A DNA stretch of 37,792 nt from Candidatus Methanoperedens nitratireducens (GTDB lineage Archaea > Halobacteriota > Methanosarcinia > Methanosarcinales > Methanoperedenaceae): positions 544,519 to 582,310 of the forward strand of contig NZ_JMIY01000007.1 in the NCBI RefSeq assembly GCF_000685155.1, written 5' to 3'. Below, piece after piece: positions 161 through 36,806 of the stretch. The notes under the pieces were generated by a model. That model made no database searches. It was not told the origin of the DNA and was given only the letters and a program-made list of their open reading frames with translations. A program made the position numbers and the translations under genes. The number at the start of each line of letters is the position of its first letter. Positions within the stretch are counted from its first letter, which is position 1.

Positions 161-2809
161 ATGAAGTTGAAACATATTTTGATACTTATACTGTTTTTTC
201 TATTTACTTTATCAGCTAACATCGTGGGTCTATTCACTGACTACTTGTGGTTTTATGAGGTCGGTTATCACAACGTGTTCTTCACGGTCCTGAAGACCAG
301 GATCATGCTGGGTGCAATAGCTTTTGCCCTGTTCTTTGCTTTTATGTACATCAATATCAGGGCAGCGCTCAAGAATACCTCAGGTCTCAAATTCCTTCTC
401 ATTTATTCCGGCGTGATTCTCATCATCAGCCTGCTCTTTGGTCTCTATGCAGCTTCGAAATGGGATATTGTACTGCGCTATCTGAACCAGGTACCTTTTA
501 ACCTCAATGACCCTATTTTCGGACATGATATCTCATTCTATGTTTTTTCACTCCCATTTTACAATTTTCTCTTGAACAGCTTATTCTTAGTGGTAATTCT
601 ATCTGGCATAGGAGCTGCAGTTATCTATCTTATCAATGGAGGGATTCTCGATCAGCTTGAAAGTCAGACAGATCCACGCTATCAAAAAGTGATCAATGTT
701 ATCAGATTACCTGAAGGCACAAAAATACATTTTGCTGTGATCGCTGGTCTATTCACTCTGCTCTTGACCATAAAATTCTACCTTATGCGGTTCGATATAC
801 TCTATACACCGAAAAAAGCTTTCTTCGGGCCCGGCTATGCGGATATTAATCTCCAGCTTTATGTAATCACGCTTATGGCAGTTTTAGCTCTCCTGATTTC
901 AGTACTTTTCTTCCTGAGCATAAAAAATACGAATGTCAAATGGCCTCTGGTCGGGATTATCTTAATAATTATTATATTTACAGGCGGGAGCTTTCTTACA
1001 ACTATGGTGCATCAGTACAAAGTCCTGCCTGATGAATACAATATCGAGAAACCTTATATAGAGAACAATATCAAGTACACAAGACTGGCTTTTGATCTTG
1101 AAGATATCGAGCAGATAGAATTCCCTGCTTCGGATAATCTTGCACTCAACGACATTGAGGAGAACACAAAAACAATAGAGAACATCCGTCTCTGGGACTG
1201 GAGGCCAATGCTTACAACCTATAAGCAACTTCAACTGATACGGACGTACTATGAGTTCAAAGATATAGATATAAACAGACTCACTATTGATGGGGAATAT
1301 ATGCAAATAGCCGTGTCTGCAAGGGAGATAGATTCTAAAAGACTCCCGGAACAGGCCCGTACATGGGTAAACGAACACCTTGTCTTTACCCACGGCTATG
1401 GTATTGCAATGAGCCCGGTACGAGGTGTATCAAAAGAAGGACTGCCCCAGTTCTATATAAAGGATGTGCCACCCAGATCAGAATTTTTTAATATCACGAG
1501 GCCAGAGATATATTTCGGGGAACTCGACGATGGTTATGTCATTGTCGGTACAACCAACCCGGAATTTGATTATCCCAGCGGGGAACTGAATGTATATACA
1601 AACTATAAGGGAACAGGAGGTATATCCCTCCGATCAGGTCTTGTGAAGCTGGCCATGGCTGTTCGTTTTGGCGAGATCAATATCCTGATTAGCGACTCGA
1701 TACAACCCGAAAGCAGGATTCTATTCAACCGGAATATCAATAACCGTATCAGGACGATCGCCCCTTTCCTGAAATATGATAATGACCCATACATTGCATT
1801 GTCTGAGGGAAAACTTTACTGGATAATTGATGGTTACACTGTCACTGACAGGTTCCCTTACTCTGAGCCTGCAGGAGGCATAAACTATATCCGGAATCCT
1901 GTCAAGGCAGTGATCGATGCATACAACGGCTCTGTGGAACTTTACCTGCTGAATGGATCGAATGACCCTATTATTGAAACCTATTCGGCAATGTTCCCCG
2001 ATCTATTCAAACCCATTTCCCTTATGCCAGAAGGCTTAAAGAGCCAGATCCGGTATCCTGAGGATATGTTCCGTGTTCAAGCTGCAAAATATGCACTTTA
2101 TCATATGAAAGATCCCGGGGTTTTTTATAACAGGGAGGATGTCTGGGAAATACCTGAAGAACTCTATGAAGGTTCAAAAATAGAGATGGAGCCTTATTAC
2201 CTGATCACAAAGCTTCCCGGATTACAGGATGAGGAATTTATCCTGCTTTTACCTTTTACACCAAGGTCAAAGACAAATATGATCGCATGGATGGGAGCAC
2301 GCAATGACATGCCGAATTATGGTAAAAGGATTGTGTATGTGTTCCCCAAGGAGAAACTTGTATACGGACCGATGCAGATCGAAGCAAGGATAGACCAGAA
2401 TACCGAGATATCTCAGAGTTTCACTCTCTGGAGTCAGTCAGGGTCCCGTGTCATAAGGGGAAATCTTCTGGTCATACCTGTCGAAGATTCGCTTCTCTAT
2501 GTTGAGCCTATCTATCTGAGAGCAGAACAGAGGGATTCAATTCCAGAACTTAAACGCGTCATCGTGGTTTATGGAGATAAGATCACTATGCAGGAAACGC
2601 TGGATGAGGCCATAGCTGTCATTTTCAAGGGAAAGGTTCCTGAACGAACTATTATCCCGGTTGAAGATACTGGAACAAATGACGAACTTATCCAGCAGGT
2701 TGTTGAATACTATGAGAGAGCACAGCAACTACTAAAAGAAGGGGATCTGGAAGGCTTTGGACGTGAGATCAACAGGATGGGAAAAATTCTTGAAAAGCTT
2801 AAAAAATGA
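161..2809 (+). CDS. UPF0182 family membrane protein
   Basis: An 882-residue protein of the UPF0182 (COG1615) family, whose function is unknown. The first ~290 residues hold about seven hydrophobic segments (for example ~5-25, 46-66, 78-98, 130-155, 190-208, 230-252, 262-283). A large soluble part of ~590 residues follows, rich in Asp, Glu and Tyr and probably outside the membrane, with the family's typical end: a Glu/Lys-rich helix reading YYERAQQLLKEGDLEGFG. Length is normal for the family and the frame is intact. The ATG at 161 is preceded by a TATA box at 131-139 and no ribosome binding site. It stands alone on the plus strand and converges with hsdM 121 bases downstream. Family identification is firm; the function is not known and none is proposed. 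Confidence 0.9.
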   Translation: MKLKHILILILFFLFTLSANIVGLFTDYLWFYEVGYHNVFFTVLKTRIMLGAIAFALFFAFMYINIRAALKNTSGLKFLLIYSGVILIISLLFGLYAASKWDIVLRYLNQVPFNLNDPIFGHDISFYVFSLPFYNFLLNSLFLVVILSGIGAAVIYLINGGILDQLESQTDPRYQKVINVIRLPEGTKIHFAVIAGLFTLLLTIKFYLMRFDILYTPKKAFFGPGYADINLQLYVITLMAVLALLISVLFFLSIKNTNVKWPLVGIILIIIIFTGGSFLTTMVHQYKVLPDEYNIEKPYIENNIKYTRLAFDLEDIEQIEFPASDNLALNDIEENTKTIENIRLWDWRPMLTTYKQLQLIRTYYEFKDIDINRLTIDGEYMQIAVSAREIDSKRLPEQARTWVNEHLVFTHGYGIAMSPVRGVSKEGLPQFYIKDVPPRSEFFNITRPEIYFGELDDGYVIVGTTNPEFDYPSGELNVYTNYKGTGGISLRSGLVKLAMAVRFGEINILISDSIQPESRILFNRNINNRIRTIAPFLKYDNDPYIALSEGKLYWIIDGYTVTDRFPYSEPAGGINYIRNPVKAVIDAYNGSVELYLLNGSNDPIIETYSAMFPDLFKPISLMPEGLKSQIRYPEDMFRVQAAKYALYHMKDPGVFYNREDVWEIPEELYEGSKIEMEPYYLITKLPGLQDEEFILLLPFTPRSKTNMIAWMGARNDMPNYGKRIVYVFPKEKLVYGPMQIEARIDQNTEISQSFTLWSQSGSRVIRGNLLVIPVEDSLLYVEPIYLRAEQRDSIPELKRVIVVYGDKITMQETLDEAIAVIFKGKVPERTIIPVEDTGTNDELIQQVVEYYERAQQLLKEGDLEGFGREINRMGKILEKLKK

Positions 2810-2930
2810 GGTAGAAACTCAGAGTATGTCTGAATACCCCTTCATGGTTCTCTTTTCGTTTTTGAATAAAATAGAGCATCGAGGCTAAGCCATACTGATG
2901 ATCAAAATTAAGACCATACCGCCCGATAAG

Positions 2931-4403
2931 CTATAATGCCCCTTTAACTGGCTGCACAAGGTCTTCCTGAATACTATTGAACTGCTCTAATGCCGCAACA
3001 AGGTTTTCTGTTATATCCTTCGCAATTATATCCGGGTCAGGGAGATTCTCAGAATCCTCAAGGCTATCATCCTTCAACCAGAATATGTCAAGGCTGACCT
3101 TATCGCGCTGCATAAGCTCATTGTAGGTAAAACTCCTGAATCTATCCGTTTCTTTTCTCTCAAATCGATTATCCGGGTTGTAACATTTAATGAAATCCGC
3201 CAGGTCATCGTATTTCAGAGTGTTTGTTTTAAGTGTGAAATGCTGGTTTGTCCTTAGATCATAAATCCAGAGTTTCTCAGTCCACGGTTTTTCGCTGGCC
3301 GGTTTTCTGTCAAAGAAAAGAACGTTTGCCTTTACTCCCTGTGCATAAAAAACACCTGTTGGGAGTCTCAAAAGGGTATGAACATCGCATTCTTGCAGCA
3401 ATTTTCTCCTGACCGTTTCACCTGCGCCGCCTTCGAAGAGTACATTGTCTGGAACAACAATAGCAGCTTTTCCGTTTATCTTCAACAGGGTTTTCACATG
3501 CTGGAGGAAGTTCAATTGCTTGTTTGATGTAGTCGCCCAGAAATCCTGACGCTCATAGGTTTGAGAGTCTTTATCAGCCTTCCCTTCTCCATTGACTATG
3601 GTATAGCTGCTTTTCTTGCCAAAAGGAGGATTGGTGAGCACAACATCAAATCGTTCTCCGGGGTCAGAAGCAAGGGAATCAGCAACAATGATCGGACTCT
3701 CTTCTCCTCCGATTCCATGAAGAAAAAGGTTCATGACGCACAGGCGCGCTGCATTATCGACAATTTCCCACCCTTTGAACGTCCTGTACCTGAGCGACTT
3801 CTTCTGCTCTATATCCAGAGAAAAATGTTTTGAGATATAATCATGCGCTGCAAGAATGAAACCTCCTGTTCCACAGGCAGGGTCACAGATAGTCGCACCC
3901 GGCTGAGGTTTTATAACATCGACCATAGCCTTGATGAGCGGTCTTGGTGTAAAATACTGCCCTGCACCACTTTTTATATCTTCTGCGTTCTTTTGCAGAA
4001 GCCCTTCGTAGATCTCACCTTTTATATCAATGTCAAGCCCGACCCATGTCTCACCGTTTATTAGTTCAATCAAACGCCGCAGTTTCGCAGGGTCTTGAAT
4101 CTTATTCTGTGATTTCCTGAATATGACGCCGAGCATTCCCTTGCCTTTGCCCAGTGTTTCAAGGATATGGCGGTAATGTACCTCAAGTGCATCCCCATCT
4201 TTTGAAATGAGGCTCTTCCAGTCAAGTTCTGTCGGGATTGTTGACGGCTTGTTGAATGGAGGCTTTGTCTGCTCGTCAGCCATTTTCAGAAATAAGAGGT
4301 ATGTCAACTGCTCTACATAATCGCCGTAGCTCACGCCATCGTCGCGGAGCACATTGCAGTAGTTCCAGAGACGTTGCACGATGGTTGAAGATTCGTTTGC
4401 CAT
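2931..4403 (-). CDS. hsdM: Type I restriction enzyme, methylase subunit HsdM
   Basis: Adenine-N6 methyltransferase subunit of a type I restriction-modification complex (with HsdS it methylates; with HsdS and HsdR it cuts unmodified DNA). The 490-residue protein has the helical HsdM N-terminal domain (IVQRLWNYCNVLRDDG near residues 8-23), the SAM-binding motif DPACGTGG at 174-181 and the catalytic motif NPPF at 258-261, so it should be active. It is the last gene of a minus-strand run hsdS-mntA-hepT-hsdM; only 23 bases separate it from hepT, and an AGGAGAC ribosome binding site precedes the ATG by about ten bases. The N-terminus resembles the EcoEI-like subgroup. hsdR lies upstream beyond hsdS and hicBA. 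Confidence 0.95.
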   Translation of the reverse strand: MANESSTIVQRLWNYCNVLRDDGVSYGDYVEQLTYLLFLKMADEQTKPPFNKPSTIPTELDWKSLISKDGDALEVHYRHILETLGKGKGMLGVIFRKSQNKIQDPAKLRRLIELINGETWVGLDIDIKGEIYEGLLQKNAEDIKSGAGQYFTPRPLIKAMVDVIKPQPGATICDPACGTGGFILAAHDYISKHFSLDIEQKKSLRYRTFKGWEIVDNAARLCVMNLFLHGIGGEESPIIVADSLASDPGERFDVVLTNPPFGKKSSYTIVNGEGKADKDSQTYERQDFWATTSNKQLNFLQHVKTLLKINGKAAIVVPDNVLFEGGAGETVRRKLLQECDVHTLLRLPTGVFYAQGVKANVLFFDRKPASEKPWTEKLWIYDLRTNQHFTLKTNTLKYDDLADFIKCYNPDNRFERKETDRFRSFTYNELMQRDKVSLDIFWLKDDSLEDSENLPDPDIIAKDITENLVAALEQFNSIQEDLVQPVKGAL

Positions 4404-7737: not shown

Positions 7738-10506
7738 TCATACCGCCAGCGTCTCATTCAGCTCTTCCAAAATATTATTCAATCTATTCCCGAACAATTG
7801 ATACGCCTTCGCTGGTCCTCCTCTCTCATAGAACGGTGCGAGTTCAAAATCATCCATTCCAATGCTCAGGGAGGATGCGATATGGTCTCTAATCATCAAA
7901 AGCCATGCCATCTGCGCCTCTGTGAACCTGACCCCTGCCATCTCCTGTTCCGCGCGCCACCTCTCAAAACGCTGGTTCACTGTCTCAGGGAAAGGCTCAA
8001 GCACATCACTCCTTCCAGAGGCAAACCGTATAAGTGAAACGATATTCGTCAGAAGCTTCTGCGCACCCGCACCTTTGACCTTTGACCTATCCAGTTGTTC
8101 ATAAGCCTGCCATAGTATTTCTGGCGTGAGTTGATATGGCGGTTTTCTTATTGCATCAGCAACCTCTTTTATCTCCTCGTATGTCAGGTGGCGCCTGCCA
8201 TAGGGCTTGCTGTAAATGATCTGCAGGGCTGTAATTTCGTCTTTATTTTCCTCGATAAACTTCTTGAAGGTATCCACGATGCCCCGCGCTCTTTCCTTTG
8301 CCTGTTCATCATAGCCTGCGAAAATAACGGTGTCTTTACTCGTTATATCAATATCCTGCTCATTCCTTTTCTTGATATCACTGAGAAGGCTCCTGAGTTT
8401 CGAACTATCAAAAGGAACGCAGGCGCTTTTCGCCAATTCCTCACCTGCTTTCTTGATTTGCTCGCCTGTTGGCGTCTCTGTTTTGAATATCTCCCTGGCT
8501 TTCTCCAATTTCTTATCAGGGTCAACAGCATCGAGAAGGCTGTTGACAAGCACTTTTAAAGACTTACCTTCTGCTGCTTTTTCAATATCTTTCTTGTCCT
8601 TTTCATCGATTTCCCTCTCCATCTTCGCAAGCCTTCCTGCAAGAGACGTAAGATTATCTTCATCCCTGATTCCAGCCGCAATTGATGTAATGAGCTTATC
8701 AAATGACACACTCTTTTTTCGCTCAAGCGGGCGGGAATCAGTCTTATCATTCTCGCACACCCCCACAGCATCCACTATCATAAAATGGGTTTTTGCAGCA
8801 GCATCCTTTGTGATAGCCTGGAAATCTGTTTGAGATATTGTTCGTGTACCCCGTCCTTTCATCTGCTCAAAGAGAACCCTGGATTTGACATCCCTCATGA
8901 AGAGGAGACACTCAAGCGGTCTAATATCTGTTCCAGTTGAGATCATATCTACGGTCACAGCTATTCGCGGATTGTAGGAATTGCGAAAACTCGCGATAAG
9001 GTCTTCTGGTTTATCACCAGCAGTTCGATAGGTTATTTTTTTACAGAAGTCATTGCCTTTACCGAATTCCTCCCTGATTATATGGACAATATCCTCTGCA
9101 TGTGAATCATCTTTTGCAAATACCAGAGTCTTTGGAATCTCAGTTCTTCCGGGGAAAATTTCTGTGGGCAATTTATCTTTAAAGATTTTGATAACAGTCC
9201 GGATCTGGTCTATTGCAACTACACTGCGGTCAAGCTGTTCAGGGGCATACTCTAAAGGCTCATCAAGTTGTTCCCACCTGACCTTTCTTGTAAGTTTATC
9301 TCTCTTATCAATATAATCTCCTGCTTCAACCCTGCTACCTTTTTCAGTGATACTTGTTTTGATACGGTAAACCTCGTATCCTACATTCACCCCATCTGCC
9401 ACCGCACGTTCATGGCTATATTCCATGACAAGATTTTGATTAAAAAAGCCCAGTGTTTGTTTTGATGGTGTGGCAGTTAGTCCTATAATGAACGCATCAA
9501 AATATTCAATCACCTGCCTCCATAAACCATAGATTGAACGATGGCACTCATCCGTGACAATGAAATCAAACGTCTCAACAGGAATTTGAGGATTGTAAGA
9601 AACTTCCTTTTCCTTACCATCTGATGAAATCTCAAAAAGTGACTGCTCTTCGTTCTCATGCTCAAATTCTGTCTCTCCACTGAGCATTGAGTAAAGTCTC
9701 TGGATCGTAGTGATACAAACCTTGCTCACGGGATCAATCGTATTTGATGCCAGGTGCTGGACGTTGTACAGCTCTGTAAACTTCCTGCCATCATCAGGAG
9801 TTACATACTGCGCAAATTCCTTTTTTGTCTGGCGCCCAAGGTTGCTCCTGTCCACCAGGAAAAGCACCCTTTTGGCACCTGCGAATTTTATCAGGCGGTA
9901 AATGAAACTTACCGCAGTATAGGTCTTGCCGCTTCCTGTTGCCATCTGGATAAGCGCTCTTGGTCTTGCTTCTGCAAAGGATTCTTCAAGGTTCTGGATG
10001 GCTTCAAACTGGCAATCTCTGAGCCCTTCTTTTATCAATGGATGATTTGAGGGCATTATTTTTAATCTTGACCTGAGAGTTTCTGGTTGAGAACTCCATT
10101 CTCTTAAAGTCTCAGGCTTATGAAATCCAAAAACTCTGCGAGACCGCGCATCCGGGTCTCTATTATCTCGGAAGTAGGTTTCTGTACCTGTGCTCTCATA
10201 AGAAAAAGGAGGAGTGTCCTGCATTTTTGGAAGTCCTTCCGGAATACCTGTTAGATATTTTGCTGTTTGTTCTGATACGCCGCTTAAAGTTGTTCCTTCT
10301 GATTTAGCCTCTAAAACCCCTCCTACAGTTCTATCCAGAAACAGTAAATAATCCGTAAAGCCTGATTTCAGTGGAAATTCACGTACAGCTACACCAGGAG
10401 ATATACCCAGATTAAACTCTGGATAATCTTGAATTGCCCATCCGGCACCTTCAAGTTGTTTATCGATTTGTTGTCTGGCTTTCTCTTCAGGTTTCTGTTT
10501 GACCAT
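7738..10506 (-). CDS. hsdR: Type I restriction enzyme, motor/nuclease subunit HsdR
   Basis: ATP-dependent translocase and endonuclease subunit. From the ATG at 10506 it has 922 residues. An N-terminal PD-(D/E)xK nuclease is suggested by FTDYLLFL and VLEAK (~50-70). Superfamily 2 helicase motifs follow: ATGSGKT (~190), DECH (~320), LTATP (~345) and GRGTRT near 560. A helical C-terminal domain that binds the methylase core of EcoEI-type enzymes ends the protein. ATG 10506 is preferred over a GTG at 10515 because TGGAG lies just before it. It is separated from hsdS by hicBA and the inverted repeat, so it probably has its own promoter. No lesion is seen, so the R-M system looks complete. Confidence 0.95.
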   Translation of the reverse strand: MVKQKPEEKARQQIDKQLEGAGWAIQDYPEFNLGISPGVAVREFPLKSGFTDYLLFLDRTVGGVLEAKSEGTTLSGVSEQTAKYLTGIPEGLPKMQDTPPFSYESTGTETYFRDNRDPDARSRRVFGFHKPETLREWSSQPETLRSRLKIMPSNHPLIKEGLRDCQFEAIQNLEESFAEARPRALIQMATGSGKTYTAVSFIYRLIKFAGAKRVLFLVDRSNLGRQTKKEFAQYVTPDDGRKFTELYNVQHLASNTIDPVSKVCITTIQRLYSMLSGETEFEHENEEQSLFEISSDGKEKEVSYNPQIPVETFDFIVTDECHRSIYGLWRQVIEYFDAFIIGLTATPSKQTLGFFNQNLVMEYSHERAVADGVNVGYEVYRIKTSITEKGSRVEAGDYIDKRDKLTRKVRWEQLDEPLEYAPEQLDRSVVAIDQIRTVIKIFKDKLPTEIFPGRTEIPKTLVFAKDDSHAEDIVHIIREEFGKGNDFCKKITYRTAGDKPEDLIASFRNSYNPRIAVTVDMISTGTDIRPLECLLFMRDVKSRVLFEQMKGRGTRTISQTDFQAITKDAAAKTHFMIVDAVGVCENDKTDSRPLERKKSVSFDKLITSIAAGIRDEDNLTSLAGRLAKMEREIDEKDKKDIEKAAEGKSLKVLVNSLLDAVDPDKKLEKAREIFKTETPTGEQIKKAGEELAKSACVPFDSSKLRSLLSDIKKRNEQDIDITSKDTVIFAGYDEQAKERARGIVDTFKKFIEENKDEITALQIIYSKPYGRRHLTYEEIKEVADAIRKPPYQLTPEILWQAYEQLDRSKVKGAGAQKLLTNIVSLIRFASGRSDVLEPFPETVNQRFERWRAEQEMAGVRFTEAQMAWLLMIRDHIASSLSIGMDDFELAPFYERGGPAKAYQLFGNRLNNILEELNETLAV

Positions 10507-10852
10507 AATCTCCACAAAAGCAACAAATCATTATAGTTATACTCAGATAAAAATTTTATTGATGATGTCATTTTGGATAGAGGTCAAAAGCTGAAAAAAT
10601 AGCCTGTAGGTCAATGCCATCAGTACTCATAGGGGTCATCACGGTATAAACTTCCCCTTCCCCTGACCGGTGGTCACTTCAAAGCTATGATTTCTACCAG
10701 CAATATCCATACGAAATAGGAGTATCAAACGAATTTAAGTGCTCCAATGCGGGTATATAAATATCCAATGTATATTGGTCGATAAGAGAGTCTCTTTTGA
10801 CCGATATACATATGGATTATTGCTATCTTTGTTAGTATTCTGTACTTTAATA
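10507..10852. other. Intergenic region between hsdR and fae-hps
   Basis: About 345 bases with no credible gene on either strand. It must hold the hsdR promoter (AT-rich patches such as ataaaaattttattga near 10546-10562, read leftward) and the end of the fae-hps transcript. The one clear structure is the hairpin at 10765-10815, listed separately. Confidence 0.6.
10765..10815. terminator. Long hairpin downstream of fae-hps
   Basis: Arm ccaatgtatattggtc (10765-10780) pairs with gaccgatatacatatgg (10799-10815) with one mismatch and one bulged base, and the centre contains a second perfect palindrome, aagagagtctctt. It starts 38 bases after the fae-hps stop codon in the direction of transcription. 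A role as transcript end or 3' stabiliser is inferred. It could instead be an operator for a dimeric regulator, since the arms are nearly symmetrical. Confidence 0.45.
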
Positions 10853-27068: not shown

Positions 27069-27737
27069 CTACAATAGATTCTTCAATCCGTTTGCATACT
27101 CATGCGCAAGCCTTACTGGCTCAGGAAGCTTGTGGCTTCTAAGGGTTGCCTTTGTAATCAAAAGTGAGCTATCAAGTGATACCCTGTGGCCTGGAGCTAT
27201 CACTATCGCCCTGCCTCTCCTGCTGGACTTAAGAAGCCATCCCACAGTCCGGTCTTTATAGATAAGAGGATTCGCCTCGCCGACTAAAGAGGGCTCTTCT
27301 CCAGATCCGCACAGGATCCTCTTTGTAATCCCGATAGTGGGCACATCCAGAGCAACACCAACATGCGTGGCAAGACCTGCACTGCGTGGATGATTGATAC
27401 CTGCCCCATCCACCATCAGGATATCAGGGACTAGTTTCAATTTTTTAAAAGTACTTACTATTGCAGATCCTTCACGGAAACTTAAGAATGTAGGAATGTA
27501 TGGAAAATCCACGATACTGGTAGAATAGACACGCTCCATAACCTCAAGAGAATTGTAATCCAGTACCACGATCCCTGATATAATCATGTCATTCATGAAG
27601 GCCTGGTCTACGCCTGCAATAAGCCGAAGCTTACCGAAGTCATCCTTGATAATCGCTTTCTCAGCGATAAGCTTTTGAACTGCAATGAGAGACTCCCTGG
27701 AAGATTCCTGGAAAACCGTAGATTTCTTTAAGTACAT
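27069..27737 (-). CDS. nfi: Endonuclease V
   Basis: DNA repair nuclease that nicks near deaminated bases, mainly inosine/hypoxanthine. The 222-residue protein has the family residues: AGVDQAF with the first catalytic Asp (~44), YIPTFLSFREGSAI with the Glu (~90), VDGAGINHPRSAGLATHVGV with the second Asp (~111), and GWLLKSSRRGRAIVIAPGHRVS. Length is usual. The start ATG at 27737 has GGTGA just upstream. It converges with nrfH (15-base gap) and diverges from the integrase with only 28 bases between the start codons. The usual canonical DGHG is DGAG here, a variation at the third residue. Confidence 0.95.
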   Translation of the reverse strand: MYLKKSTVFQESSRESLIAVQKLIAEKAIIKDDFGKLRLIAGVDQAFMNDMIISGIVVLDYNSLEVMERVYSTSIVDFPYIPTFLSFREGSAIVSTFKKLKLVPDILMVDGAGINHPRSAGLATHVGVALDVPTIGITKRILCGSGEEPSLVGEANPLIYKDRTVGWLLKSSRRGRAIVIAPGHRVSLDSSLLITKATLRSHKLPEPVRLAHEYANGLKNLL

Positions 27738-27765
27738 ATGTCACCTGTAATGGTAAGGTGTTATC

Positions 27766-28815
27766 ATGGATATTAAAGAATATATCGAAGAATTAGAAGC
27801 AAATGGTTTTGCTAAAAACACAATAAGATCATATAAACAGATTTTAGAGAGATTAAACGATTTTAAAGAGCTAAAAGACATAACAAAGGAGGATTTAGTA
27901 AAATTCTTTAGAGATTTTAAAGGCACTGATGAAACAAAGAGATTGTACCAGACTAAGATCAAGAAATTCTTTAAAGACCTGGAGAGAGCAGAAGTAGCAG
28001 AGTGGATAAAGCCAGTTAGAGTAAAAGAAAAGCTAACCGCAGATGATATTCTAACAACTGAGGATATAAATAAACTTATAGAGTCAACTGGTGGAATATA
28101 CTGGAAAGCATTAATAGCATTCCTATTTGAATCTGGATGTAGAATATCAGAAGCTAAAGCACTAAAATCTAAAGATTTTAAAGAGACTAATGAAGGGATG
28201 ATAGTAGATATACCCACAATGAAAACAGCATCAGGATTTAGAAGAACCGCATTAATATTAAGTGCTGATTATATTAGAAATTTGAGAGTTTATAGTAACT
28301 CACCCCCTGATAGTGTAATTTTCCATATAAGCGCATCACACACACAGGTAGTATTAAATGAGATTTCCAATAGAGCAGGTATTAAAAAGCCAGTAACGCC
28401 ACACGCTTTTAGACATGCACAGGCTACAATAATGGTTCAACAAGGGTATAACGAAGCTATCATAAGAAAGAAATTAGGATGGACTCCAGGTAGTACCATG
28501 ATAGCACGATATCAGCACCTGAATGATAACGATGTAGTGGAAGCAACGTTAAAGAACAATGGTAAGACCCCTGAGAAGTTGATCATAACAGAGATAAAAC
28601 AGGCAGAGAAAATTACTTTAGTTGATGCTGCTATGCAGTTTTCTAAGCTATCCCAGGAGAATGAGACCCTGAAAACAGAACTGAAAAAACTAAAGAGCTT
28701 AGTTAAGAAAATTGCAGAGTTGCAGAATATGACATCTATCGAAGAACTGGAAGCAGAGACGTATTTTGAAGAAGCTGAGTCAAAAAAGGAAGAAAGATCA
28801 TTTCCACCCGACTAA
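27766..28815 (+). CDS. Tyrosine recombinase / integrase
   Basis: Site-specific recombinase of the archaeal XerC/D-like type, 349 residues. N-terminal SAM-like core-binding domain (~1-85), catalytic domain (~95-275) with Arg in ESGCRISEAKAL, HxxR in TPHAFRHAQAT, a Trp at the second-His position in KKLGWTPG and the Tyr nucleophile in MIARYQHL. A long charged coiled coil (~280-345) extends the C-terminus. The ATG at 27766 follows AAGGTG. The gene is AT-rich with frequent AGA codons compared with endonuclease V next door. It overlaps the next minus-strand gene by 18 bases tail to tail. It most likely mobilised or maintains the element running to about 30.2 kb; a chromosome-dimer resolvase is the alternative. 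Confidence 0.92.
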   Translation: MDIKEYIEELEANGFAKNTIRSYKQILERLNDFKELKDITKEDLVKFFRDFKGTDETKRLYQTKIKKFFKDLERAEVAEWIKPVRVKEKLTADDILTTEDINKLIESTGGIYWKALIAFLFESGCRISEAKALKSKDFKETNEGMIVDIPTMKTASGFRRTALILSADYIRNLRVYSNSPPDSVIFHISASHTQVVLNEISNRAGIKKPVTPHAFRHAQATIMVQQGYNEAIIRKKLGWTPGSTMIARYQHLNDNDVVEATLKNNGKTPEKLIITEIKQAEKITLVDAAMQFSKLSQENETLKTELKKLKSLVKKIAELQNMTSIEELEAETYFEEAESKKEERSFPPD

Positions 28816-29220
28816 CTTTTTAAGAGCTTTGTAATGATCCATACATGTAGCCGTACGGCACTTCTTACAAGCAAGATCACAGCGCTCTATAGGACTCATG
28901 GGTTCTTCCGATGCACGTTTTGCGATAGCCTTTAAATAGTTCTCCCTGAAAGAATCGTATATTTCAGCACTCCGCGCCTTATCCTTTAGATCGCGGCTAT
29001 GTTGAGAAACAAGCCAGTGTACTTGATAACGAGTTTTCCAGGGACTAAAGTTAGACCATTGATTCAACTGAGTGATGATAGAGAGAATACCAGAAGCGGT
29101 ATAACCTACATAGATAAGAAAGCCCACCATCCATAAACGTTGGTCATGTGTAGCATCAGGATTAAGAAGAACATCCATTATCTTTTTACGCTGTGATGCA
29201 TAGCGAATCTTCGCAAGCAT
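28798..29220 (-). CDS. Small protein, possibly primase-large-subunit-like
   Basis: About 140 residues from the ATG at 29220; the longer frame up to 29325 is a shadow of the preceding gene. The middle (HDQRLWMVGFLIYVGYTASG, then ITQLNQWSNF and KTRYQVHWLV) has the helix pattern of the archaeal/eukaryotic primase large subunit, where a short arginine helix, a glycine turn and a 'T-x-Y-Q' segment precede Fe-S cysteines. The C-terminus holds four Cys in CDLACKKCRTATC, which could bind Fe-S or zinc. The resemblance is from memory and is weak. The start overlaps the end of the upstream gene by 35 bases, so they are probably translated from one message. It converges with the integrase. Confidence 0.6.
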   Translation of the reverse strand: MLAKIRYASQRKKIMDVLLNPDATHDQRLWMVGFLIYVGYTASGILSIITQLNQWSNFSPWKTRYQVHWLVSQHSRDLKDKARSAEIYDSFRENYLKAIAKRASEEPMSPIERCDLACKKCRTATCMDHYKALKKLVGWK

Positions 29221-29668
29221 ACGAACCACACTCACGTCGAGGTATAGCATGTGCTGGATATTTACGGCAGGTATCAACATACTCCTGGAATGACTCAACC
29301 AGAGCAGGAGGTAACCCCCCATCAATGATCATCCTATCGAGCATAATAAGGAATTGCTGGAATATTTCAAGGTTTTTAGTATTTTCCTTGTCGCAATCAC
29401 GAAGTACGCTCATAACGTGTTTATGAGCCTCTAAAATCAATATTATGAATGCCTCATCGATAGCACCACATTCAAGAGCTTTATGAAACTCAGGAAAAGC
29501 CCTGGCATGTTCAGCCTGTGAGATCTCATTCATAACGCCAGCCGATTCATCTAAAGGCATGTTCTTAACATTACCAAGGCAACGCTCTTTGTATTTTTTT
29601 GTTTCAGTATCCCATATACGTTCATACACATATTCATTTTTGCCAACCTTGCGAGTAACGATAGCCAT
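29186..29668 (-). CDS. Hypothetical protein of the integrated element
   Basis: A 160-residue protein I do not recognise. It opens with a short beta-rich stretch (TRKVGKNEYVYERIWDTETK, then ERCLGNV) of the kind seen at the N-termini of some transposases and integrase-like proteins, followed by mostly helical sequence and a Cys-containing tail (RRECGSYACEDSLC). The ATG at 29668 is preceded by GGTGAT, so it is a real start. It overlaps the downstream small gene by 35 bases and lies directly after the hairpin/iteron region, which would serve as its promoter and control region. The position suggests a replication or control protein of the element; that is inference only. Confidence 0.65.
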   Translation of the reverse strand: MAIVTRKVGKNEYVYERIWDTETKKYKERCLGNVKNMPLDESAGVMNEISQAEHARAFPEFHKALECGAIDEAFIILILEAHKHVMSVLRDCDKENTKNLEIFQQFLIMLDRMIIDGGLPPALVESFQEYVDTCRKYPAHAIPRRECGSYACEDSLCITA

Positions 29669-29927
29669 ATGTTTATCACCAAGTGATAAGAGGACACCTA
29701 AATATATAAAGGTATCTTTATACCAGTAAATATATACGATATGTTTATACAGTATGGGTAATTTCCTGGTAGATTGTAAAGTTTTTTAGAACATGTGATA
29801 AGAGTTGTGATAACAATAAATATGTTGCAATAATAATTAAGAGTATGTCAATAGATTATGCTTTTTCAATGTTGCGTTAACCTTCGCTCTGTGCTTCGGT
29901 TACAGTTGTGCTAATACGAACAAGAAA

Positions 29928-30019
29928 AGGGGTGAAGAGTGCCCGCGTGGGAACCCCCCCACGCGGGAAGGAGGATGCATCCTCCTCGCGGCGGGCTAAC
30001 GCGCCGCCGCTCACCACCT
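29928..30019. other. 92-nt structured element: closing stem plus three hairpins
   Basis: Four helices with almost no unpaired bases between them. Closing stem: AGG-GGTGA (29928-29935) with TCACC-A-CCT (30011-30019), 8 bp with one bulged A. Hairpin 1: CCCGCGTGGG (29942-29951) with CCCACGCGGG (29958-29967), 10 bp, 6-base loop. Hairpin 2: the 18-base perfect palindrome AGGAGGATGCATCCTCCT (29969-29986). Hairpin 3: GCGGCGG (29988-29994) with CCGCCGC (30004-30010), 7 bp, 9-base loop. This cloverleaf-like fold could be a structured RNA or a DNA cruciform such as an origin or recombination site. It is not a tRNA: there is no T-loop or anticodon arm. Confidence 0.6.
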
Positions 30020-30052
30020 GGTAACAAGCTACATACGTGATATGGGATGTCA

Positions 30053-30165
30053 CATTATAAAGCTAATATTATTTTATGTACATGATATGTCACAACTATA
30101 TTTATTCTATGTACAGGATATATCACATTATAAAGCTAATATTATTTTATGTACAGGATATATCA
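30053..30165. repeat. Iteron-like AT-rich direct repeats
   Basis: Two 40-base copies (30053-30092 and 30126-30165) differ at two positions; both run from cattataaagc to ATGTACAKGATATRTCA. A third, partial copy lies between them (30093-30125) and shares only the last 17 bases. So the box ATGTACAKGATATRTCA occurs three times at spacings of 33 and 40 bases. Such arrays are typical of plasmid origins (iterons) or of operators for a repressor. It lies just beside the structured element. Confidence 0.65.
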
Positions 30166-30286
30166 TATTTATCAGAATTCGTAGAAATCCCATATTTTAT
30201 ATAACTCCCTGGAAAAATCACGGGGAAATATATCAGATGTTGCTGGCATAATACCGGGATTATTGGATGAGCTTGAAATACCTGCG

Positions 30287-33231: not shown

Positions 33232-33305
33232 TGGGCCCGCGGAGATTCGAACTCCGGACCTCCGCCATGTCAAGGCGACGTCATAACCAGCTAGACCACG
33301 AGCCC
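33232..33305 (-). tRNA. tRNA-Val (anticodon GAC)
   Basis: Read on the minus strand the 74 bases fold as a tRNA: acceptor GGGCTCG pairs with CGGGCCC followed by discriminator A, a D-arm with TGGTTA, anticodon stem/loop with TTGACAT (GAC, Val), T-arm GGAG-TTCGAAT-CTCC. CCA is not encoded; the next bases are tatatttttaa, a T-rich tail usual for archaeal transcript ends. No duplicate of its 3' end is seen elsewhere in the window, so it does not appear to be the attachment site of the integrase element. Confidence 0.95.
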
Positions 33306-34138: not shown

Positions 34139-34941
34139 TCAAGTTCTCAAATACTCGTAAATTGGAACCATCGTGATACCCTCCTCAAATGCCGTAATCA
34201 GTTGTCGCTTTAATTCTCTCTTATTTTCTCAGTACCTTATTGCCAGCCATTTCTTAGCCGCCCTCCACGATTGCTCTATAGGATCAAGCTCAGAACTATA
34301 ACTTGGAAAATAAACGATATGCAGATGCTCTTTATTTTCCTGATAAAATTTTTGCATATCACCAGAGGTATGATAAGGACCCTGATCTATAACGGCAACC
34401 AGCTTACCGAATTTGTAAACAAGTCGTTGTAAGAATACCTTGAAAACATCACCGTTTAGCCAGTCTGTGAACGCATAGATGAAATATTCAGAGTTTAATA
34501 CCCCAATAACACAGATTTTTTCCTTCCTTTTGTATTCGTACTTTACATTCGGGTGACTACCAACAGGAAACCAGCCGTATGTGAGATATGGTGGAAGATG
34601 CTTTCGTCCAGAAATAAGACTGTGTATCCATCGTCAACAAATGGTTTAACTTGTTGTTTGAAGTTTTTTTAAATTCTTCTTGAAGCTGTTTGTTAGCCTT
34701 TCTATGAGATGGCCGTGGTTTCTGGCAGGATAGACCAAGACGATGAAGTATACGCCTTACTTGAAGTGGTTTATAGGACACGTTATAGAGTTGTTCTATT
34801 AGCTGGATAACAAGTTTTGTTGTCCAGATAATGAACGGAAAGCCCTGCTCCTGGGGAGATTTGAAAAGAATTGGCTTTAGATCTTCTATCTGTTATAGAA
34901 ATGTTTGGAAGAAATGATTCACCTCTTGGAATTATTGTCAT
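34139..34941 (-). pseudogene. Broken IS630-family transposase
   Basis: Read on the minus strand from the ATG at 34941, the pieces assemble into one IS630-type DDE transposase only if several lesions are bridged. (1) An extra base near 34880 splits TDEDLKPIL. (2) At an A7 run (34664-34670), a -1 shift is needed to go from EEFKK to NFKQQVKPF. (3) A base is missing near 34595 between LFLDES and PPYLTYGWFPVG. (4) An in-frame TGA (34229-34231) interrupts the tail. Catalytic residues are recognisable: Asp in LFLDES, Asp in VAVIDQGPYH, Glu in SSELDPIEQSW. The helix-turn-helix part (VRRILHRLGLSCQKPRP) is present. Terminal inverted repeats could not be identified. The element is very likely dead. Confidence 0.85.
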
Positions 34942-35160
34942 TTAAACACCCCCCCATTAAATAATCTGCTTGATGAGTCTTAAAAATTACGGAGGCATTA
35001 GAATCATGCTATAGAAATCTTAGAAATAGGTGATTAAATATAAATTGGTTGACCGTAATGTTTAACAACTTCTTGGAATTTATTATTCAGTATTTGAATT
35101 AATGAATCATCGAAAAGGCACAAAAACACAAAGCGTAGCTACAATAATTCAATAATACCA

Positions 35161-35798: not shown

Positions 35799-35960
35799 TT
35801 GAGCTCCCGCCCCTCCCCGAACAGCGCCGCATCGTCGCCAGAGTAGACCAGCTCATGTCCCTCTGCGATGAGCTTGAAGTCAGGCTTGCGCGCTCGCAGG
35901 CGGACGGCGAGAGGTTGATGGAGGCGGTCTCGTGGGGAGGATGCTGGCAGGGTAACCTGG
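35799..35960 (+). pseudogene. hsdS C-terminal remnant, copy 1
   Basis: A short GC-rich piece in an AT-rich region encodes ELPPLPEQRRIVARVDQL, then CDELEVRLARSQADGERLME, the C-terminal conserved segment of an HsdS of the EcoKI-like type. No start and no recognition domain remain. A two-base insertion after the EAV codons (around 35930) shifts the end, which would otherwise read EAVVGRMLAG and stop. It is 88% identical at DNA level (90 of 102 bases, 35828-35929 against 36980-37081) to the second remnant 1.15 kb away. It differs from the intact hsdS at 5.3-6.7 kb, so it comes from another type I system. Confidence 0.85.
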
Positions 35961-35985
35961 CAGCCCGGCTACATGAATATTACAT

Positions 35986-36516
35986 TCATGTAAAACGGGA
36001 AAAAAGCTGCTTTAAATTATTATCTGAAAAAACATAATTATCTTTTTGCTTCAAGCTCTCGATAATTTCAATAAGCTCGCTCTTTTGCTTTATCGTTCCT
36101 TCTATTATACAGGCTCCTATCAAGCTTTTCAAATCAAATATTCTCTCAACCCCCTCTTTTATTGCTATTTTGGCAAGGTAAGAATCATCTGTGAGCAGAA
36201 TAGCTTTTCTTGATTTTGCCAGAACAATACATTCGCAATCTGCAACGCTCAGTTTATAATTATCGTTGAGCCTGTAAGCTTGTTCCAGTTCTTTCGTTCC
36301 AGGCACCAGGATACAAAGTTTATTTTTTACCTCGTCAAAACTCACCATTTCTTCTATTTTCTCAATAAATCTAAATCCTGCAATCTTATTTATATTTAAT
36401 TCTTTTAATACAGACGGCGTGATATAGCAAAAATGCTTTTTAAACAGGATATCCAGCAAACTTAACCTGTCTATTTTGGCCAATGAACTCAAAATGCAGG
36501 TATCGACAAGAATCAT
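35986..36516 (-). CDS. PIN-domain toxin (VapC-like, DUF3368 type)
   Basis: A 176-residue PIN-domain RNase. Acidic residues of the active site are visible: Asp5 in ILVDTCILSSL, Glu near 39 in SVLKELN, Asp in KLSVADCECIVLA (~92) and Asp pair in ILLTDDSYLAKIA (~109). After the PIN domain there is a ~35-residue tail rich in Lys/Asn. Its ATG overlaps the stop of the preceding gene by one base (TAATG), the usual coupling of antitoxin and toxin. The module is bracketed by the two hsdS remnants. Likely an RNase toxin held in check by the adjacent UPF0175 protein. Confidence 0.85.
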   Translation of the reverse strand: MILVDTCILSSLAKIDRLSLLDILFKKHFCYITPSVLKELNINKIAGFRFIEKIEEMVSFDEVKNKLCILVPGTKELEQAYRLNDNYKLSVADCECIVLAKSRKAILLTDDSYLAKIAIKEGVERIFDLKSLIGACIIEGTIKQKSELIEIIESLKQKDNYVFSDNNLKQLFSRFT

Positions 36517-36806
36517 TAAATCAGCCTTGCTAGTTCATCTCCCTTAGCTTCTGCAAAACCTCTTCTTATCTTTACGCCAGCTTTAGCAAGAAAATCCTTC
36601 ATCTCCTCGGTGCTAACTCCTGCCAATTCAGCAGCTTTTGAAATAGACATTTCCTCGGTTTTATATAGCTCTACCACTGCGGCTACTCTCATGTCCTTTC
36701 TGAATTCAAAAAAAGTCCTCAGAGCATCGTCAATAAGTTCATTTTTCGTCGAATAAATACCACTTCTAACCAGTGCATCTACACCATTGTTTATAACACT
36801 GCTCAT
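36516..36806 (-). CDS. UPF0175-family antitoxin
   Basis: A 96-residue small protein: N-terminal helix-rich segment (VDALVRSGIYSTKNELIDDA) that resembles a short ribbon-helix-helix-like dimer region, then a helix-turn-helix (EMSISKAAELAGVSTEEMKD, ~51-70) and a short basic tail. Members of the UPF0175 family are regularly found just before DUF3368 PIN toxins, as here, and act as their DNA-binding antitoxins. The TAATG junction gives tight translational coupling with the toxin. The start at 36806 has no obvious strong ribosome binding site. Confidence 0.82.
   Translation of the reverse strand: MSSVINNGVDALVRSGIYSTKNELIDDALRTFFEFRKDMRVAAVVELYKTEEMSISKAAELAGVSTEEMKDFLAKAGVKIRRGFAEAKGDELARLI

Follow-up and report, generated by a model that had tools for sequence, protein, structure and literature searches.

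A GC-rich four-helix cloverleaf in the control region of a minimal integrative element of Candidatus Methanoperedens nitratireducens, a possible replication-initiation site

At positions 29928-30019 of the window, as we call the whole analysed stretch of 37,792 nucleotides, the DNA carries a GC-rich cloverleaf of four helices, which lies in the control region of a precisely defined, minimal integrative element of 2,512 bp. The cloverleaf is real and matches none of the known families tested. It may serve as the DNA-level site at which replication of the excised circle is initiated, a reading that we regard as quite possible while stopping short of calling it probable. The fold is made up as follows.

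29928-30019, no strand assigned: GC-rich four-helix cloverleaf, from RNAfold and a DNA fold on both strands
29928-29935 paired with 30011-30015/30017-30019: outer stem, 8 bp with one bulged A
29942-29951 paired with 29958-29967: H1, 10 bp with a 6-nt loop
29969-29975 paired with 29980-29986: H2, 7 bp with a 4-nt loop; a perfect 16-bp palindrome, GGAGGATGCATCCTCC
29988-29996 paired with 30001-30002/30004-30010: H3, 7 bp, a 1-nt bulge and 2 bp

A cloverleaf of four helices had been proposed here in a preliminary description made from the letters of the window, and RNAfold as well as DNA parameters returned it at the same coordinates and on both strands. The stem lengths given there (8, 10, 7 and 7 bp) hold for the main helices, with H3 gaining two further base pairs past its 1-nt bulge. 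The single unpaired base between consecutive hairpins is found between H1 and H2 and between H2 and H3, but 6 nt separate the outer stem from H1 and none lie between H3 and the outer stem, while a G+C content of about 75% in surroundings of about 30% came close to the 72% measured for the cloverleaf and the 31% and 25% of its flanks (over 160 bp). Random sequence was said to fold in this way only rarely, and this was confirmed: the RNAfold energy of the plus strand is -60.9 kcal/mol compared with a shuffle mean of -38.6 (z -6.5), that of the minus strand is -62.5 kcal/mol compared with -41.8 (z -5.4), and none of the 200 shuffles behind these scores was as stable. DNA parameters gave nearly the same architecture at -34.3 (plus) and -35.6 (minus), with z of -5.8 and -6.4, respectively, and all 34 pairs of the plus-strand fold are Watson-Crick. 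In a scan by stretches of 1.19 Mb of its own genome (37% of 3.2 Mb), the cloverleaf was the most stable of all 92-nt segments and the sole GC-rich one below -50, the second-ranked segment (-53.6) being a plain AT-rich inverted repeat. A GC-rich patch at 35809-35973 (70% G+C), considered as a second structure, folds no better than shuffled sequence; by eye it codes for the C-terminus of a type I restriction specificity subunit and looks like a stray fragment, with hsdM- and hsdR-like genes found at 2931-4403 and 7738-10515. Several broken frames at 34160-34960 are what is left of an IS630-type transposase (PF13592 match at 34557-34781), and a PIN-domain protein beside a UPF0175 protein at 35986-36806 is likely part of a toxin-antitoxin pair.

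That the structure belongs to no known family, as first supposed, agrees with Rfam, in which gathering thresholds gave no match and relaxed thresholds sub-threshold chance matches only. ARAGORN recognised nothing tRNA-like there and predicted only a tRNA-Val at 33232-33305. Sequence homologues were not found in phages, and the plasmid search returned only GC-rich stretches of 36-43 nt (E 0.03-0.1), which we read as chance. A single-sequence covariance model detected no structural homologue in 31 genomes of the genus or, under stricter filters, in 186 genomes of the order. Membership of a REP family, which the preliminary description had left open, did not emerge either, for the cloverleaf occurs once in its own genome and was not found as a dispersed repeat in the genus or the order. 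In addition, the flanks of 15 related integrases were scanned for a comparable structure, and nothing near -58 kcal/mol was observed. The failure to find any relative indicates that the element is rare or fast-evolving.

The boundaries of the surrounding element were obtained by comparison with an empty site, and its main features are listed here.

27692-30214, no strand assigned: integrated mobile element, 2,512 bp from core repeat to core repeat, by blastn against the empty site
27692-27702, no strand assigned: core repeat ACTCCCTGGAA, left junction, within the 5' end of the endonuclease V gene
30204-30214, no strand assigned: core repeat ACTCCCTGGAA, right junction
27069-27737, minus strand: endonuclease V, the target gene (PF04493, E 5.9e-61)
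27766-28815, plus strand: tyrosine recombinase, the integrase (PF00589, E 7.7e-18; PHROG integrase, 2.5e-37)
28798-29325, minus strand: P0001, 175 aa, of a virus/plasmid family with weak similarity to the primase large subunit
29186-29668, minus strand: P0002, 160 aa, an orphan overlapping P0001

Rightward of the cloverleaf the window encodes a 703-aa predicted surface protein, and in a close relative (G024:C53, L085) blastn revealed an empty site that lacks the 2,512-bp stretch, the surface-protein orthologue (85% identical) being directly followed by endonuclease V (93%). The window aligns with this locus in two matches, 92% and 90% identical, which meet at the 11-bp core ACTCCCTGGAA; as the core is single in the relative and present twice in the window (27692 and 30204), the 2,512 bp are a precise insertion. 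The crossover point lies within the opening codons of endonuclease V, whose native 5' end reads MFPCDFSRESL (read from L061), and the new start codon (27737) and N-terminus come from the element, so that the target gene stays open. The insert is thus a tyrosine-recombinase integrative element with the recombinase inside, a direct-repeat core at both ends and an empty site elsewhere; besides the intact recombinase gene it holds a pair of small ORFs, the cloverleaf and, around attP, direct repeats. At the other endonuclease V loci, this recombinase was found within about 1.5 kb in none of 23. The host genome also codes for multihaem cytochromes, a cytochrome c552 (NrfA-type) protein and a Fae-HPS fusion, a set suggestive of a methane-oxidising archaeon of the Candidatus Methanoperedens type.

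The integrase shows, by eye, the catalytic motifs R-I-S-E and H-A-F-R-H and a Tyr region, and ends in a coiled-coil-like C-terminal tail. A related integrase in another genome (L044, G013:C165, 750-4354) is seemingly split, with residues 3-37 at 750-854 and the rest from 3464; between the two parts lies an 821-aa ORF (943-3408), which may reflect an intron, an intein-like element or some other insertion.

Homologues of P0001 occur in six further members of the genus, as a second copy in the same genome and in the archaeal virus ANMV-1 (KP703175.1, L114, 5923-6348; hypothetical protein AJP62017.1), the last with 43% identity over 51 aa and E 2e-5. In the genome of the window, G024 and G018, a recombinase lies 10-14 kb from the homologue on the same contig, and the second own-genome copy (G000:C1:657204-668727; L124, L125), about 10 kb from another tyrosine recombinase, suggests an integrated virus or plasmid. 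Ten members of the family align around H-x2-R-L-x3-FL-x3-GY...W-x2-Y...T-x2-Q. Six of the ten match PF04104 (primase large subunit) weakly, the best E value being 0.0039 and none passing the cut-off, and a scan of the genus with PF04104 picked up five family members, again short of the cut-off, in the helical portion of the model. When the family was aligned by hhalign with 29 PriL sequences of the genus, a modest match was obtained (Prob 75.6, E 2.4e-5 for one comparison) over the helical H-R-L-FL-G...T-YQV segment, which is the Fe-S helical region. P0001 itself falls in no Pfam family at cut-off, and its AlphaFold model is all-helical and poor (pLDDT 52). These similarities are suggestive of a family related to the primase large subunit. 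In three loci (L129 2883-3677, L130 11150-11959, L132 10891-11601) the P0001 homologue extends into a conserved C-terminal region (YIPLPKD..KRP..NW..Y) that resembles, by eye, the start of a primase-polymerase, although Pfam gives no such match. Full-length relatives of P0002 were not found in any collection searched; its low-confidence AlphaFold model has three N-terminal strands, a hint of a sheet, followed by helices. Among viral contigs there were no relatives of P0001, P0002 or the integrase, and among genome contigs none of P0001 or P0002.

In the circular form, all non-coding features are gathered in a single stretch of 609 bp that separates int from the divergent P0002-P0001 operon, in the order P0002 TATA-like box, cloverleaf, three repeats, TATA-like TTTTATATAA, attP core, fourth motif and int start. 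Besides the cloverleaf and the core, this region and its surroundings comprise the following.

29697-29712, minus strand: putative TATA-like box about 35 nt upstream of P0002, assigned by eye
29919-29924, no strand assigned: AACAAG, left member of a possible target-site duplication around the cloverleaf
30023-30028, no strand assigned: AACAAG, right member of the same possible duplication
30047-30172, no strand assigned: AT-rich direct repeats of the motif GTACA(T/G)GATAT(G/A)TCA(C/T), with copies at 30078-30093, 30111-30126 and 30151-30166
30195-30204, plus strand: putative TATA-like TTTTATATAA, assigned by eye
27732-27744, no strand assigned: related motif GTACATATGTCAC on the opposite side of the attP core, overlapping the start codon now used by endonuclease V

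The repeats flanking the attP core on both sides resemble tyrosine-recombinase arm-type sites, or possibly iterons. The TATA-like TTTTATATAA stands about 75 nt upstream of int in the circle and is cut off from it by integration, and may therefore serve int only in the circle.

An element that excises as a circle either replicates or is wholly dependent on the chromosome. Since the element described here contains, outside its genes, chiefly attP, the repeats and the cloverleaf, and since one of its two accessory genes is of a virus/plasmid family with similarity to a primase subunit, the cloverleaf would be the likeliest replication start. We infer present-day excision, replication of the circle, action of P0001/P0002 at the cloverleaf and a folded form that is DNA. 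The recombinase would excise the element as a circle, and the cloverleaf would extrude, or fold as single-stranded DNA, and act as the start of circle replication, either as an origin or as a single-strand initiation site. P0001, alone or with P0002, would recognise the folded structure and bring in the host primase and replisome. This proposal draws on the clean 2,512-bp insertion with its 11-bp core, on the gathering of cloverleaf, repeats, attP and gene starts in one 609-bp region, and on the primase-like P0001 family, with homologues in ANMV-1 and the genus, several of them on contigs with a tyrosine recombinase. The Watson-Crick-only arms and the equal folding of both strands are also as expected of a DNA inverted-repeat structure and favour a DNA-level structure, although this is weak evidence in GC-rich stems.

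Several observations argue against replication initiation. We recognised no gene of the HUH, Rep_trans, MCM or Orc1/Cdc6 type in the element, nor one for a catalytic primase, and P0001 and P0002 gave no Pfam or PHROG match to a Rep nuclease of the rolling-circle (SNJ2/pT181/HUH) type, so that replication would need host or helper functions. P0001 stays below Pfam cut-offs with a modest profile match, no cloverleaf homologue is available to reveal selection on the fold, and the GC-rich island, flanked by AACAAG, may have entered the element at a later time. Next to other P0001 homologues, moreover, the GC-rich structures look like unrelated repeats or IS ends. Three such structures came up when the surroundings of these homologues were scanned. 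The three-hairpin structure just upstream of the P0001 homologue in L127 at first resembled a counterpart of the cloverleaf but proved to be a dispersed GC-rich element of about 126 bp (L127:10114-10239; also G011:C16, G002:C22, G002:C44 and G014:C17) found in seven genus genomes, with partial copies that keep only one end or the other, as in MITE or transposon ends. Like the cloverleaf, it occurs in mobile regions and has compact hairpins that are GC-rich and similar in size; unlike it, it is multi-copy, and the two share no sequence similarity. The structure near the P0001 homologue in L129 is by eye an IS200/IS605-like end, and that in L126 is a strong GC-rich hairpin repeated about 3 kb apart (201-292 and 3231-3322) around a 654-aa FGE-sulfatase-type ORF.

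Plasmid origin, folded recombination site and new structured RNA were the three identities suggested in the preliminary description. The mobile-element setting fits an origin and single-stranded DNA better than an RNA, and the cloverleaf is not the recombination core: a crossover site of the integron attC type was rejected, because the empty site maps the crossover to the ACTCCCTGGAA core, about 185 bp away. A structured small RNA from the intergenic region, for instance a regulator of copy number or integration, nevertheless deserves consideration. Archaeal non-coding RNAs often stand out as GC-rich islands in AT-rich DNA, as the cloverleaf does, and its very stable fold (z -6.5) with several short hairpin loops would suit such a molecule. 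However, Rfam offers no gathering-level match, no dedicated promoter was recognised, and a position upstream of the P0002 TATA-like box means that the cloverleaf is not a leader; the lack of the G-U pairs common in RNA genes points the same way. We therefore hold a small RNA to be rather unlikely.

The cloverleaf could instead be a MITE-like or other non-autonomous insertion inside the element, without function for it. The AACAAG copies stand exactly 3 nt beyond both of its ends, an arrangement noticed post hoc with a chance probability of about 0.4-0.8%, and its outer stem would form short terminal inverted repeats; that such elements exist in the genus is evident from the dispersed three-hairpin one. 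The test of a longer imperfect direct repeat on either side of the cloverleaf (GCTA-ATACG) gave p 0.36, which is not significant. Against an insertion, the cloverleaf is present once in its own genome, no copy was found in the 31 genomes of the genus or the 186 of the order, and the terminal repeats are short and imperfect. We consider such an insertion quite improbable. A role as an accessory site for recombination or regulation, be it an attP-arm platform or a boundary that recruits P0002/P0001 or separates the divergent genes, would fit the position on the same arm of the attP core as the three repeats, with the fourth copy across, since this layout resembles the arm sites of tyrosine-recombinase attachment sites, and palindromes such as H2 are used by dimeric regulators; but the repeats are AT-rich and unrelated to the cloverleaf, a four-helix architecture exceeds what an operator needs, and terminators in archaea are tracts rich in U, not GC hairpins, which leaves this role decidedly doubtful.

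Returning to replication initiation, its most specific form would make the element a 2.5-kb plasmid whose replication module consists of a single-stranded DNA cloverleaf and a stand-alone PriL-like protein through which the circle is passed on to the host primase. We deem this version unlikely; to our knowledge, no primase-directed origin of this kind has been described in archaea. If replication does start at the cloverleaf, the element would be a very small archaeal integrative element in which folded DNA, together with an accessory protein of primase-like kind, takes the place of a dedicated Rep protein. Given the few genetic tools for such archaea, a self-contained 2.5-kb integrase-attP-origin module whose chromosomal target is known would offer a practical basis for building more. 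Even with another function for the cloverleaf, the empty site defines a precise mobile element and its integration target, the 5' end of endonuclease V.

Among known systems, the complementary-strand origin of phage G4 and the ssi sites of plasmids are stretches of about 100 nt with several packed GC-rich hairpins that are read as single-stranded DNA, and the cloverleaf resembles them in size and in its closely packed GC-rich hairpins. These sites are bacterial and work with DnaG or a RepB'-type primase, whereas the element has a weak PriL-like protein only. PriL-like or PriCT domains are typical of archaeal mobile-element primases (PMC5862659), and P0001 is like PolpTN2 and the PriCT-bearing primases in having a PriL-related helical domain on a plasmid or virus (PMC5862659, PMC3973330), but it comprises the helical segment and a short cysteine-containing tail only, with no catalytic primase domain. 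With archaeal tyrosine-recombinase integrative elements in general, the element shares an intact integrase, a direct-repeat core and a precise in-frame insertion; it differs in its target, the endonuclease V 5' end instead of the tRNA genes in which most of them integrate, and in an integrase that is not split by integration (PMC8371274). The betapleolipovirus SNJ2, of the Rep-Arvir family, carries a hairpin DNA element as its likely origin, and its replication operon becomes whole again only once the virus has excised and circularised (PMC13107129), which gives our proposal a close mechanistic precedent in archaea, and a tested one. Its origin combines a single small, conserved hairpin with an inverted repeat upstream, and a Rep nuclease is encoded beside it, whereas our element has four helices, no detected Rep nuclease and no relative found. 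Both are integrating archaeal elements with an integrase and an intergenic folded DNA, and in both circularisation joins control sequences with genes.
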